The position numbers were made by a program, and so were the translations under genes. Shown here piece after piece: positions 2,402 to 37,939 of a stretch of DNA of 43,254 nt (within the stretch, counting starts at the first letter, position 1; each line of letters begins with the position of its first letter). The DNA comes from an uncultured bacterium (GTDB lineage: Bacteria > Patescibacteriota > Gracilibacteria > Absconditabacterales > Absconditicoccaceae), in the NCBI GenBank assembly GCA_903918675.1, contig CAIXFE010000061.1, forward strand, positions 1 through 43,254, in the 5' to 3' direction. The notes beneath the pieces are model-generated. The model saw only the letters and a list, made by a program, of their open reading frames with translations, searched no databases and was not told the DNA's origin.

Positions 2402-3478
2402 TTATACAGGCTGACTGGTGTTTACAAATAATCCTTCGACTTCGCTCGGGTCAATAATTCATTTATCGATCAATCTCTGAGTATACTTTTTCAAGGTAAT
2501 CATGCCGATCAAAGAAGAGGTATCGATGATACTATCTATCTGATCTATCTCTCTTTTTTTGATATTATTTTTCACAGAGGTTGTATTGATCATCACTTCA
2601 AAAATCCCTACTCTACTCGCACCATCTTTAGTCTTGACCAAAAATTGCGACTGGATACCGATCAAAGATTCCGCCAATCTCTCAGCTATGCTGGATTGAA
2701 TCTCAGGAGGGAAGAAAGAGATAAGTCTATTTACTGTATTAGATGCAGAGTTCGTATGAAGGGTAGAGAAAACCAAATGTCCGGTTTCAGCTAAACTCAA
2801 AACAGATTCAGCTGTCTCTCTATCACGGATTTCTCCCACGAAAATGATATTGGGATCTTCACGCATGGCTGACCTCAGCGCATTGGCAAATGATCGAGTA
2901 TCATGCCCGATCTCTCTTTGAGAGACGATACATTTCTGAGGTTGGAAAATAAATTCTATCGGATCTTCTATCGTGATCAGATTGGAATTTTTCGTTTCGT
3001 TTAGATATTCGAGCATCGCTACGAGGGAGGTAGATTTTCCACATCCGGTAGGTCCCGTGACGAGGTAGAGTCCCTTCTTTGCAGCCAGAATATTTTTCTT
3101 CACACTATCAGCGATATCAGAGAACATCAGTTCTTCTAACTTCTTCGCCATAGCATTGATCTTTCTCATGACTACTCCGATTCTTCCTGTCTTAAAGAAA
3201 GCATTGATCCTATAAGGCACTCAATTCTTAGAAATGTAAGCAAAGTCCGCTTCTTTATCTCCTAGAAATTTATCAAATCTCTGAGGATTCCCTTGAAATA
3301 ATTGCCTCAAGATAATTTCCATAGATTCATTGCTCAATTTTCCTGCCTTTTCCTCTCTGATAATTTCTCCATTGAGCCTATACGAAATACTTTCTCCTCA
3401 GGAAAGATGAAGATCAGAGATATTGGGATTTTTCTCTATCAGAGCTAAGATTTGCTCTATATCAAAGGTTTGTGCCAT
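2402..3478 (-). CDS. pilT: Type IV pilus retraction ATPase PilT
   Basis: Walker A VTGPTGCGKST, FVGEIRDRETAESVLSLAETGHLVFSTLHTNSA. TGA=Gly at LHLSGGE and SKNGVPYRINAF; reading past the apparent TGA stop adds ...RLIDKGIIDPSEVEGLFVNTSQPV* (TAA). Confidence 0.92.
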
Positions 3479-3661: not shown

Positions 3662-3744
3662 ATTGGCCCATATTTTCACCCGGGTGCCAATGGAGGATAA
3701 TCGGCCACTTACCTACCATTTTTTCTACTTAGCACCCGGGTGCT
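3662..3744. repeat. Twin-palindrome element copy 1
   Basis: CACCCGGGTG (3677-3686) and AGCACCCGGGTGCT (3731-3744), centres 56 bp apart, with GGATAATCGGCCACTTACC and a T-rich stretch between. Confidence 0.7.
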
Positions 3745-3891
3745 GGAAAGGATATATTCAAGCAATCAAGCTCACCTTGAAAAACCATCCCATCTAGATA
3801 TGATGACAGAAATCGAATACCATACCCCCGATGAGATATCACTCAAGAAATCACTTCTCATGAGCAATTTATCTGTATAATTGATGAATTT

Positions 3892-5376
3892 ATGTTTGGA
3901 AAAAAGAAATTTCAGAAGAGGACTATAGGCGATATGCCCAGTTATAAGTCGTACAGTGATGCGCTTCACCCTGCTCGTAAACGGTCATTCATGAAGATAT
4001 TTCTCATACTCTGCTGTGTTTTTCTCGTAGTATTTATGAGTAAGTATATCGTAACCTTCGCTAAATGAGCAATTGATCAGATCACTAAGGGGACAGTAAG
4101 TGTCATCTCCAATAGCTTAGGCCAATCAATGACAGGAGATGAATATGGCAATATCAATGTGATGATCGTAGGATATGGAGGTACAGGACATGCAGGATCG
4201 TATTTAGCAGATTCTATCATGGTCGCATCATTCAATCCCAAGTTAGATGCCTTGACGATGCTTTCTATCCCGAGAGATTTAGAGGTGTACGATACAGGAC
4301 GGTGAATTAGAGGTAGAGTTAATGAAGTATTTTCTGTCTGAGTAGGAAGAAATCGCGAATTTGCTACAGGGGCAGCATTACTATCGAGTATGTTGGAGAA
4401 TATCATGTGAATCAAAATAAATTATTATGCCTTGGTAGATTTCTGAGGGTTTAAGTGACTTATAGATACCTTGGGTGGCATCACTATCGATGTCCCCGAG
4501 TCCTTTGTAGATACCACATATCCTACATTAGACAACGGATACATGACCGTAAGTTTCACTTCCTGAGTCAATCAATTCGACGGGGAGAAAGCCTTAGAAT
4601 ATGCAAGATCCCGTCATTCTACTTCAGATTTCGCGAGATCACTCAGACAACAACTTATTATAAAAGCAGTCATGGACAAGTTAATCGACAAGGGAGTAAC
4701 TAATATTACCAAAGTGAAAAAACTCTATGCCGATTATACCACTATGGTCCAGACCAACATCTCGCTCAAGGAGATCATGGGCATGGTGAAATACATGTAC
4801 AATCTCAACAATATATTTTCCTATGGGTATACTACAGAATGCTCTGAGCTCAATTACAAATATTCAACTCCAGCGTGTTTCCTCTATACTCCCGATAGAA
4901 GTCTTTTTGGTGGGGCTTCTGTCATGATCCCTGATGGCTCCACACCAGCCAACGTCTGATTTTATGATTATACTCAGAAATTTGCATCTTACGTTATCCA
5001 TCATCAAGGGTACTTGATAGAGCACCCCAAGATCGCGATCCTGAACGGCATAGACAAAAAGTTCGCTAAGCAGACGTTGAAAATATCAGATGGATTTGCC
5101 AATCAACTTGCGGTCAAACTCAAGAAATATGCCTTTGATATCTCCAATGTTCAGAATTTCACTCAGCCCATTTCATGAACGACACTCTACGTCGTTTCTA
5201 CATGAAAAGTAGATCAAACTATCAAAATGCTTCAAACTTTCGTTCCTATTTTCCACGTAGAAAAAGATACCAGTATGGTAGATCCAGCGCTCCTGAGCTG
5301 ATATGATCTGGTGTTGGTCTTGGGAAATGATTATATACCTTATTTAACAACAAATCCATTTAGTTATTACAAATAG
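3892..5376 (+). CDS. LytR-CpsA-Psr (LCP) family protein
   Basis: MFGKKKFQKR...TM...DEYGNINVMIVGYGG...DSIMVASFNPKLDALTMLSIPRDLEVYD...IDTLGGITIDVPESF...FDGEKALEYARSRHSTSDFARSLRQQ; several TGA at Gly; ends TAG. Confidence 0.88.
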
Positions 5377-10422: not shown

Positions 10423-11541
10423 ATGATCGGAAGACCAGCAATGTATAAGGGAAAAAAATTAAAAATAGCTATGGCTTGATGAGGATCATGAGGCCATGTT
10501 TTTCCTATTAAGAGCTTATTGGAATGGATCTATAAAAAGCCCCAATATGTTCAGAGAATAGATAAAATATACTGGTTTGGAACCCAGAATAGTTTGGAAA
10601 GTCAGATCTGTGAGGAGCTCAACGTCTTGGAATGAAATATAAAATTTGTCTCCATTTTGTCAGGGAAATACCGCAGGGAAACGCTCCGAATATCCAGATG
10701 GAAAAATATACGTGATGTCTTTCTGTTTGTCGCTGGGTTCTTTCAAGCTTTCTTTCGATTGCTCCGATATCGCATAGATGTGATATTTTGTAAATGATGA
10801 TATGTGGCTTTACCAGTAGTGTTTGCTGCTGCTATTTTACAAAGGACAATCATCGTCCATGAATCAGATACCCATGCATGACTAGTAAATAGAATTGCTA
10901 ATTGCTTCGCTTCAAAGATATTCACTTGATTTGATGGGGTATTTTCTAAGGCAAAAACAGTTGGCCAAATACTTTCTGATGACATTTTGGTCGAAACGCC
11001 GCATTCAAATTGAGAGCACCACAAGGCGAAAATATTGATTAATGGGTGATCTCAATGATCAAGAAAACTCTATCAAACCATATTACATATCTTACAAAAT
11101 CACACTCAGGCATGCTCAAGTTTTGATTTCTATATCATATTAGGCCTTCTCAGCCAGCAAATGGCAAAGGACTTCGAAGTATTTCCAAACGTTCACACTG
11201 TCGGATTTATTTCCCAGAGAGAGATGGGCGAACTTTACGCGATGTGCGACATTAGTATTACTCGTTGAGGGACTACTTCATTGGCCGAACAGAAATTGTA
11301 TAATATAAAGCAGATTATCATTCCTATCCCATGGACGCATGATCAATATGATAATGCCCAATGGTATGTCGACCATTACAAGGATATCATGTTGAGCCAA
11401 AAAGATATCGCTTTTGAGGAGAAATTGACGAGTGCTTTGATGAAACTAAGGACATTCAATAAAAAGGATTCCAAGAAAAATAAACAAGCGCAGATTAGTA
11501 GAACGAAAGAGATCATAGTGAAGACTATTCTGTCAATTTAG
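10423..11541 (+). CDS. murG: UDP-GlcNAc:undecaprenyl-pyrophosphoryl-MurNAc-pentapeptide transferase MurG
   Basis: KLKIAMAGGGSGGHVFPIKSLLEW (three TGA), GGYVALPVVFAAAI, VHESDTHAGLVNRIA, ILINGGSQGSRKLY, ITRGGTTSLAEQKLYN. Ends TAG at 11539-11541. Confidence 0.9.
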
Positions 11542-11607
11542 CACCCGGGTGCTAAGTGTTTAAAATGGGCTCTAATAGCCTATTTTTTTTATTCCGCACC
11601 CGGGTGC
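11538..11607. repeat. Twin-palindrome element copy 2
   Basis: TTAGCACCCGGGTGCTAA (11538-11555) and GCACCCGGGTGC (11596-11607), centres 55 bp apart; GGCTCTAATAGCC + TATTTTTTTT terminator-like hairpin between. Confidence 0.75.
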
Positions 11608-11636
11608 TCAATAAGCCAATGGACACTTTTCTTACC

Positions 11637-11716: not shown

Positions 11717-14700
11717 ATGCGCTTACGCAAGCCTTTGCTGATCATAGCAACACTCTTTTTCCTAGTGCTCTGAATCTCACTTGCAGAGGAAGTGGTCCAA
11801 GAATCTCAGTCTTGAGATATAGTACAAAATGATATGACCTGATGAGAGGTAGAGTCATGATGAATCACTCCTCCTTTTCTCTGACAGGAGTGGACAGGAG
11901 TGGACACCACCGAAAGTCAGGGCACATGAACTACAGAATCGGGGGATACCACCCTCGCAGTATCAATAGAAAACCCTCGGCTTTTGGATACAGTTCCCTC
12001 AATCAATACCATGACTTCCGATATTCCAGCGCTCCCCTCTTTGCTCATCTCAGAAGTCTTTTTCGATGGAAGTGATGAACGACTGGAGATAAGTAATATC
12101 TGATCCACAGACTTTTCTGGGACTTTAGTGTTGACGGGGATAGGCATCAATACGACCATAAATAGCTTTATCCCTTCGCAGCAGTCTATCGTAGTTGCTA
12201 AATCAGGCAGAACGTTTGGATATTTCCTAGATCAAAGTGTTATCAAAAACTATGCTTCTATGTGATTTACCGACACCAAACAAATCTCTGTTTCATTATT
12301 CTTCAGTTGAATAGTATTAGATTCTTTCAATGTAGATACGGGGACGGTAGTTCATTACAATGATAAAACCACCTCACTGGAAAAAGTAAAAATAGGAGGG
12401 GAGTATATCATCACATGAACTTCTTCGGACAGATCATGGAATGTTCAATCGTGATATATCGCCAACCCATGAAAGCTCTATGAGCTTAGCCCAGACCTTC
12501 CACCAGTCTCAGAAACAGGGGAGGAAGAACAAAGCTGAATACTCCCCAAAGTAAGGATTACGGAAGTGTACTTAGATAGTGATCAGCGGTTTGAACTTAC
12601 CAACGTCGGATCAGGATCATTTTCCTGAAATCTCAGTGTTAGTTGAGCCAAAAGTTCATTACTATCACTAAATGTGAATTTAACGCCATGACAAAGCAAG
12701 GTATATGGGGACAGCTGCAGTCAGATTTTGAACACGGTAGTCATAGGCAAAACAGGCCTTAATCTATCCATATCTCAAAGTAAATCACTCTCATTGTTCA
12801 TCCTATCTTCATGAGTCGTCATAGATTCCTTCTTTGTAGATTCCGGATATGTAAAAAAATATAAGGACTATAATATCTCATTTGAAAAGGTGGGAATAAA
12901 TGATTCTCGAATTACGACCAAAGCAACTCTGGATAGGCGTTACAATAACACAACATGATTCGTGATCAATCCTGGGAAAGTATTCACCACAGGAGAGAAT
13001 CTTATAGATGTAAGTATTCCAGAGACAAAAGCGCCTGTATATACATGAGCATTACCCATAAATTGCGGTGATTTCACTCAGAGGTATGAGGCAGAAATTA
13101 GCGAGGTATTTGCAGGGAATGAAGTGTATCATCCCTACGTAGAGCTCGTATTATCGGAAGATCCAAACTATGACAGCTTTTTTCTCTCGGGTTCTGCACT
13201 CCTAGAACCCATAGAAATCTCACTAGATCAAGATTTGATCACCTTAGAAGGAAATACAACAGTGCTCATCTCAGACTCAGAAGATCGGTATAACCAGTGA
13301 TTAGATAGTCTTGATAACCCAAGGTTTGCACTGCAGAAAAATGGCTGATGGCTCTTACTTTACGGCTGAAATGGACAGAGTAGACAACTTTTGGACATCG
13401 TCTATCTCACATGAGTAACGCTAGGTAGTTCCTTATATTACAATGCTCATGACCAGGGTTGTGCCAAGGTTTTGGATGAAACAGGCGATTTCTCGCCGGG
13501 ATTTGATAGGAAATTTTTGCAGTACTTTGCAGTCTCGACCTCACCAAAAATTGAATATGTCACAGTCGGGAACGCGGTGGCCTGAACTTGTCCTATCTGT
13601 CCAGATGAGCTAAGTACGCAGCAAGAAAGCACATGAAAGGCCGTGACTCAGCAATTGATGGCCATGAGTTGAGCCATAGATAAACCTCAGATATCTTCTG
13701 GAGGATATTTAGACGTGAAGATTTTAACCGTTGATTATGATCCTCCATGATCAGATGTGGGGAATGAAAAAATTACACTAGAAGCAGATCTATCTTCGTG
13801 AGAAGATACTCTCTTACTAAGCAAACCCGACCGGTATCTGAGATTCTGAACGACCAAAAGATATCTTAGCTGACTCCTTCAAAATGGAATTCCAGTGACA
13901 CTTCAATGATCCTTTAGCTTCCCAAATAGTAGCAAAAGCTGAAATAGCATTACAGTCCAACTCCGGTATCAAAACACGCTAGTAAACAGCTATACTTATA
14001 CATTTGCTCCACCACTACCCAGAATTACAAAGCCAAAGACAAATGTACTTACAGGGACTTTCCTCGTCACAGAAGTGGTAGATGGCGATACGGTCAAGAT
14101 TTTGTATAGTGGGGCCGAGCAGAGCATTAGATTTCTCGGAATAGATGCACCAGAGACGACCTTACTGAGGAATAAGAAACTAGGTTGCTTCGGACAAGAG
14201 GCAAAAGCATATCTGACATCATTGTTGCTCGGAAAACAAGTCCATCTGGAATTCGATCCCACGCAACAGAAGACAGACAGCTATAAGAGACGATTGAATT
14301 ACGTCTACCTGGATGATCAACTCATCAATGAGATGATGTTAGCTCAAGGATACGCCAAAGAATACACCTTCAAAACGCCATATCAGTATAGAGCAGAATT
14401 CTTATCTGCGCAGCAAGAGGCGCAAGATGATTTACTTGGATTGCGAGATCCGTCAGTTTGCCCTGAAAATGCTCTACAGACAGGAAAAAATCTGACAGGG
14501 GAGTCGTGGTCTGGCTTGGATTTTTCCGGATTAACCGCCAAGATAACATATGTATTGCCAAATCCGAAAGGGAAAGACAGTAATGAAGAAATTGGGTTGA
14601 AAGTTGAGGCTGACACAGAGGAGAATTGAAAATTAAAAATTGAAAATTGAAAATTGATCTCAGGGCTCTATTTAGAGATCAATGGGAAAAAGAAAAAGAT

Positions 14701-15337
14701 TAAAGACGGTTTACCATTGGGGATAGAGACGATATTATCATGAAGTTTAGGATTGCCCAACAAAGCAAGCTGTATCGGATTGGGATATAGTGGGCGCATC
14801 TTGGATACGCTATGTTATCCTTTACCCAAAGAAGGGCAGAAAATATTTGCAGATGGGCACCAAGATTTCGATATATCACCAGAAGAAAATTCCGTTTTGG
14901 CTGATCTTACACTGCAAACTATGGGGAGCAAAATCTGCGCCATGTTTGGACCCATGCAAGTCATTTGCAAAAATGCTCCCCTCGGCAAGACAGCAGTCAA
15001 GACCGCCAACGAAAATAAATTATATGAAAAATTTATTACGATCATCGATACTTACATTAAGGACCAACGAAAAGATCTCTATTACACTCCTGATATGAAA
15101 GTCTATTTCGCACTTCTTCGATCCAACAAAAAAAACATCAAAGCAGGAATACAGGAACTGTCTACCTCACATGGAGAGGTTCCAGTCTATGATTTAGACC
15201 AGCAAATCCATATCATCGAAACTTATTCGCTTGCATACCGAGCCATGAAATGAGGACAAACCTTGTTGGATGAAAATCCCTCCGCCCTATCGGGCACCTC
15301 TCCCGCTGCGCGGGATTCCGTATGACTTCACCTTTAA
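11717..15337 (+). CDS. Large secreted protein: signal peptide, lamin-tail-domain (LTD)-like repeats, thermonuclease (SNase) domain
   Basis: MRLRKPLLIIATLFFLVLGISLAEE...; LTD-like SLLISEVFFDGSDERLEISNIGS and PKVRITEVYLDSDQRFELTNVGS; SNase VTEVVDGDTVKILYSGAEQSIRFLGIDAPET...YKRRLNYVYLDDQLINEMMLAQGYAKEY. Many TGA=Gly; single frame of 1207 codons to TAA. Confidence 0.8.
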
Positions 15338-37858: not shown

Positions 37859-37928
37859 TTTGCTCCCGGGAGCAAAATTATGAAAATGTAGATAAGTAGC
37901 CACTTATCACCGATCTGCTCCCGGGAGC
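37859..37928. repeat. Twin-palindrome element copy 3
   Basis: TTTGCTCCCGGGAGCAAA (37859-37876) and GCTCCCGGGAGC (37917-37928), centres 55 bp apart; GATAAGTAGCCACTTATC hairpin between. Confidence 0.75.
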
Positions 37929-37939
37929 TGATGGACAAA

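Follow-up and report, generated by a model that had tools for sequence, protein, structure and literature searches.

The paired CCCGGG palindromes upstream of the LytR-CpsA-Psr (LCP) gene belong to a repeated doublet that is, very probably, a REPIN-like miniature mobile element, i.e. a non-autonomous, non-coding unit of 73 bp in which two end palindromes (P) enclose a central one (Q), copied in trans by an HUH/Y1 transposase of the RAYT/TnpA-REP type. The window (the whole stretch analysed, 43,254 nucleotides) is contig C61 of genome G000, a 1.39-Mb draft, 92% complete, in which TGA is read as glycine (code 25). All genomes compared here are draft MAGs, with genes called as simple open reading frames under the same code. 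The earlier note had read the element mainly as a dimeric-protein or looping site, or an attenuator; its description of a defined, repeated, dyad-symmetric, non-coding element of fixed spacing is borne out, and a mobile, RAYT-associated palindrome doublet explains these features better.

Architecture and distribution of the doublets

In copy 1, two exact CACCCGGGTG palindromes lie at 3677-3686 and 3733-3742 (the second has the longer form AGCACCCGGGTGCT) with 56 bp between their centres, just as first described. Copies 2 and 3 (11542-11606 and 37863-37927) show the same layout with a spacing of 55 bp. The full unit of copy 1 spans ~3673-3746, i.e. 74 bp, compared with 73 bp in copies with a 61-bp core; the extent first proposed, 3662-3744, was slightly offset. 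Such pairing is far above chance: CACCCGGGTG with at most one mismatch occurs four times in the window (0.18 expected), six of the nine CCCGGG hexamers found there make up the three pairs, and random placement yielded one CCCGGG pair at 54–57 bp in 0.6% of 200,000 trials and two pairs in none. The features, in window coordinates, are the following.

3673..3690, no strand: left P palindrome of copy 1 (TTTTCACCCGGGTGCCAA)
3694..3718, minus strand: central Q of copy 1 in its asymmetric form, GGTAGGTAAGTGGCCGATTATCC on the minus strand
3729..3746, no strand: right P palindrome of copy 1 (CTTAGCACCCGGGTGCTG)
11538..11610, no strand: copy 2, complete P-Q-P doublet
37859..37931, no strand: copy 3, complete P-Q-P doublet with P variant CTCCCGGGAG, between SecD-like and TyrRS genes
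2402..3478, minus strand: neighbour gene, outside the element, type II/IV secretion (PilT/PilB-like) ATPase, code 25
3892..5376, plus strand: neighbour gene, outside the element, LCP protein, code 25

Copy 1 thus occupies the spacer between the divergent T2SS/T4P ATPase and LCP genes. Near copy 2, a gene at 11717-15337 encodes a protein of 1206 aa with an internal staphylococcal-nuclease domain.

We collected 62 doublets from six genomes of the genus by exact CCCGGG. Each consists of P, an 18-bp palindrome (TTNNCACCCGGGTGNNAA), the central palindrome Q (RGCTYAWTRAGCY) and a second P, with P centres nearly always 55 bp apart. The core measures exactly 61 bp in 45 of the 62 doublets and 56–63 bp in the others; aligned 61-bp cores show P, then a loose spacer, then Q, either as RGCTYAWTRAGCY or in an asymmetric form containing GNAGGYAATRAGC. 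The resemblance noticed earlier between the interior of copy 1 and the reverse complement of copy 3 (GTAGGTAAGTGGCC / GTAGATAAGTAGCC) is real and corresponds to this asymmetric form of the common centre. The second P variant is CTCCCGGGAG, and the choice of A/T variant is correlated inside each P and also from one P of a doublet to the other. Folded as single-stranded DNA, the units reach z scores of -4 to -8 relative to shuffles, mostly through pairing of P with P. Across copies we found no excess of compensatory pairing in the spacer or centre, and an Rfam search of the element gave no matches, and an RNA element or riboswitch was rejected on these grounds; together with the position of the dnaK copy upstream of its promoter, these results also speak against the attenuator that had been considered. 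Nor does an oriented model of Q show any consistent direction relative to genes, as a directional element linked to gene orientation would. A DNA uptake sequence was likewise discarded, given that k-mer counts contain no short motif repeated hundreds-fold and CCCGGG leads them only via these elements.

A genome-wide search for pairs, as the earlier note had proposed, recovered 13 doublets in G000 and none with a reversed-pattern control. Among nine genus members, the pattern search detected CCCGGG pairs in seven (27 in G005, 13 in G000, 9 in G009, 6 in G007, 5 in G003, 3 in G008 and 1 in G010) and none in G004 and G006. All 62 collected doublets are intergenic, although ~75% of those loci is coding sequence; with none of them inside a called gene and identical spacing in 45, the random spacing and background frequency within genes that would have spoken against the element are not what we see. 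In G000 an intergenic P is nearly always part of a doublet, the ~11 singlets being mostly in or near coding sequence, and the ratio of singlets to the 13 doublets is under the REPIN limit of 2. Gene contexts comprise 28 '--', 10 '++', 15 divergent and 6 convergent arrangements, many of the '--' doublets lying within 20 bp of the 3' end of the upstream gene. The neighbours in G000 (T4P ATPase, LCP, SecD, DnaK, topoisomerase I, DnaG, FtsK, RNase Y, a YadA-head adhesin and others) are a mixture of housekeeping and surface genes, and a coherent regulon was rejected on these grounds. Insertion linked to tRNA genes was also rejected, no tRNA being present across nine scanned loci. In G005 a further motif, AAAGGACAAAAGTAGGACAA, recurs 10–40 bp outside P (L032:13355-13400, 14141-14180 and 14948-14990; L037, L040, L046, L051, L058), and a shorter form of it, AGGACAAAAGT, is found in G007 and G009.

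Recent copying and neighbouring RAYT genes

Evidence of movement comes from G005. Five of its copies, spread over two contigs and present in both orientations, are 85–89% identical within the element and ~30% identical in their flanks, identity dropping no more than 6 bp beyond the CCCGGG ends; the best pair is 97% identical across 73 bp. Near-identical copies with unrelated flanks in both orientations identify the 73-bp doublet as the unit copied to new places. Movement among the copies of G000 itself was not seen. The statement that the element fits no IS class therefore overlooked its mobility, visible in these recent 73-bp copies and in the doublets that bracket RAYT genes.

Contig C37 of G005, which holds several doublets 0.2–2 kb apart, carries a gene for an HUH/Y1 protein between two of them. 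RAYT genes also adjoin doublets in G007, G036, G002 and Vampirococcus lugosii. Relatives of these proteins were collected throughout the family with PF01797 and a profile built from the proteins themselves. They are ~160–190 aa long, with invariant HFH, Y and N columns (the Y-N motif), and their best family match is NF047646, 'REP-associated tyrosine transposase' (3e-19 to 3e-10), at scores under its curated cut-off; a PDB search returned a single match, E. coli TnpA-REP (4er8, E = 1.5e-10). Flanking CCCGGG palindromes accompany 9 of the family's 14 strong RAYT loci, that of V. lugosii included, and within ~300 bp of the RAYT genes CCCGGG reaches 3.8 per kb vs 0.19 per kb elsewhere in those loci. 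In G002, G036 and G049, the CCCGGG pair retrieved by the blind pattern search proved to be adjacent to a RAYT gene. The arms outside CCCGGG vary by host: CACCCGGGTG in the genome of the window, GACCCCGGGGTC in G034 and G036, and CGCCCGGGCG in V. lugosii. No CCCGGG was present at the RAYT loci of G024, G025 and a separate clade (G045, G046:C1, G047).

In G000 we detected no RAYT of this clade, beside the doublets or elsewhere, so its copies may be orphaned. One candidate location, the 638-bp interval between two P sites on contig C30, gave no match and lies within an open reading frame. A different Y1/RAYT-like gene exists at G000:C4:16970-17272 (L104; NF047646, E = 2e-16), with no CCCGGG around it. 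RAYT genes of this clade were not found either in the doublet-bearing G003, G008, G009 and G010, and MAG incompleteness is unlikely to be the cause in every one of these genomes. E. coli strains devoid of a RAYT still keep their REPINs (PMC8049555).

From this linkage we infer that a RAYT/TnpA-REP copies the doublet in trans, now or in the past. In the single-stranded state, on the lagging-strand template, P and Q would give either a single long hairpin of P paired with P or several small hairpins in a clover; paired recognition of both P ends by the RAYT would keep the spacing fixed while the spacer drifts. Copies persist solely between genes. Some were at their promoter-proximal sites already before the species separated and have remained there, where they may have acquired a second function in cis, as a terminator, an insulator or a protein site.

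Our survey of 45 RAYT loci indicated that many in Patescibacteria are flanked by repeated palindromes of their own. At the patescibacterial loci L145-L178 these are lineage-specific, often of an ACC...GGT type (GACCGGTC, AACCCCGGGGTT, GAACCCGGGTTC), and others in this set use AGTTCGAACT or AGTCCGGACT. Such lineage-specific flanking palindromes could serve to define the co-evolution of RAYTs and their repeats.

Comparison with REPINs and related systems

The REPINs of Pseudomonas and E. coli (PMC3116915) are the closest counterpart: they too are extragenic inverted palindromic repeats at a fixed distance (in SBW25, two repeats with 71 bp between 16-mers), occur mostly as doublets linked to a RAYT, have a spacer less conserved than the ends and fold into hairpins or clovers. 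Unlike them, the repeat described here is a perfect self-palindrome centred on CCCGGG with no GTAG foot, its copies number tens rather than hundreds, no excess of compensatory changes was seen in its spacer and its host belongs to a code-25 SR1/Absconditabacteria lineage. Since the aligned copies contain no conserved GTAG or CGTC tag or foot beside P, the element is not a canonical REP, and we limit our claim to a REPIN-like doublet of a RAYT.

The layout also agrees with that of published REPtrons and TIRtrons. Tagless repeats are a feature of TIRtrons (TIRYT), in which the Y1 transposase has terminal inverted repeats on either side in place of GTAG REPs (PMC3733652). Their repeats, sometimes self-complementary, flank a RAYT-like gene and are found again at other places in the genome, as dimers or in clusters, a resemblance that does not extend to the sequence, which here is unrelated to the GGGGWSAS consensus, and the proteins here are ~160–190 aa. 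The NCBIfam scan, a general rather than HTH-specific search, showed in our proteins no C-terminal HTH extension of the kind typical of subclass 2.1 (PMC6006769). With IS200/IS605 (IS608) TnpA they share the HUH/Y1 chemistry family (PF01797 matches), but the element carries no internal transposase and the proteins fit the REP-associated model rather than IS200. In the open-licence literature we found no paper that links Gracilibacteria, Absconditabacteria or the candidate phyla radiation to REPINs or RAYTs, and the doublets would thus extend this domesticated pair of transposase and repeat to reduced-genome bacteria.

Orthologous sites and alternative explanations

Several doublets occupy the same site in different species. 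Upstream of dnaK in G000, G003, G007 and G009, the doublet always lies 13–14 bp before the same promoter block, ATAGCACC; at this site G010 retains a degenerate P and G004 a weaker remnant. A CIRCE-like inverted repeat (TAGCACC...GGTGCT) follows the doublet directly at the dnaK promoter in L068, L079, L080 and L083. The pilT/LCP spacer contains a doublet in G000 and G008, with most genus members lacking it, and three genomes have one at the same position in the murG intergenic region. Interiors at orthologous sites are alike above background only in the closest species pair, G007/G009; at the others they are saturated with P intact, a conservation that is partly ascertainment as the copies were found via exact CCCGGG. 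Intact P around saturated interiors goes beyond the simple decay of a mobile element and is unexpected where no RAYT is detectable. This sequence pattern is the main support for a putative secondary cis or host function, at which it hints. One possibility, to which we give rather little credence, is that the doublets were first mobilised by a RAYT and then domesticated in the genus as putative cis-regulatory protein sites, with host selection keeping P-55 bp-P after transposase loss; this Absconditabacteria lineage would then have a regulatory network of transposon origin, at dnaK, pilT/LCP, murG and other genes.

The same persistence can be read as that of an operator or upstream activating site, bound as double-stranded DNA by a global regulator specific to the genus. 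Dimers would sit on both P, with an additional, third contact at Q setting the 55-bp phasing, and the targets would include the pilT/LCP, dnaK, topA, dnaG, secD and ftsK promoters; we consider this reading improbable. The symmetry of P, the co-varying A/T variants within and between P, the lack of hairpin-type covariation in Q and the intact P around saturated interiors agree with an operator, as do the constant dnaK position in four genomes (with the remnants in G010 and G004) and the shared intergenic sites at pilT/LCP and murG. It does not account for recent copying into unrelated flanks in both orientations, for RAYT genes bracketed by doublets, for the lack of the element at pilT/LCP in most genus members, for the whole absence of the family from G004 and G006, or for neighbour genes that form no coherent regulon.

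Copy 2 brings up another role, since its centre (11562-11586) is an intrinsic-terminator-like hairpin followed by a T run, only 2 bp past the stop codon of the MurG-like gene, and is a plausible exapted terminator. That exaptation at gene ends, as a bidirectional terminator or RNA-stability hairpin, explains the old REPIN copies is very unlikely: REPs elsewhere hold such roles, and the many '--' copies close to upstream 3' ends fit, yet copy 1 sits between divergent promoters with no terminator-like site, divergent settings outnumber convergent ones (15 vs 6) and the dnaK doublet is upstream of its promoter. Integron attC-like or Xer-type recombination sites bounding gene cassettes, an idea evoked by the closely spaced copies on G005:C37, have a next to negligible probability, as its RAYT and local copying account for that cluster, the G000 copies are scattered singly among housekeeping genes and the repeated unit is the 73-bp doublet rather than a gene cassette.

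For the preferred reading, a REPIN-like element moved by a RAYT, the genus provides a natural test of host benefit from REPINs, because doublets are kept in sister species with and without a RAYT and some of them lie at the same promoters.

The pilT/LCP spacers of G007 (L087) and G009 (L093) contain a second intergenic repeat family, TTTTATCACATAGGAATT...ATTCCTATTCAGC...GCTGGATAAAAACGACGTT..., present there in two copies in G009.
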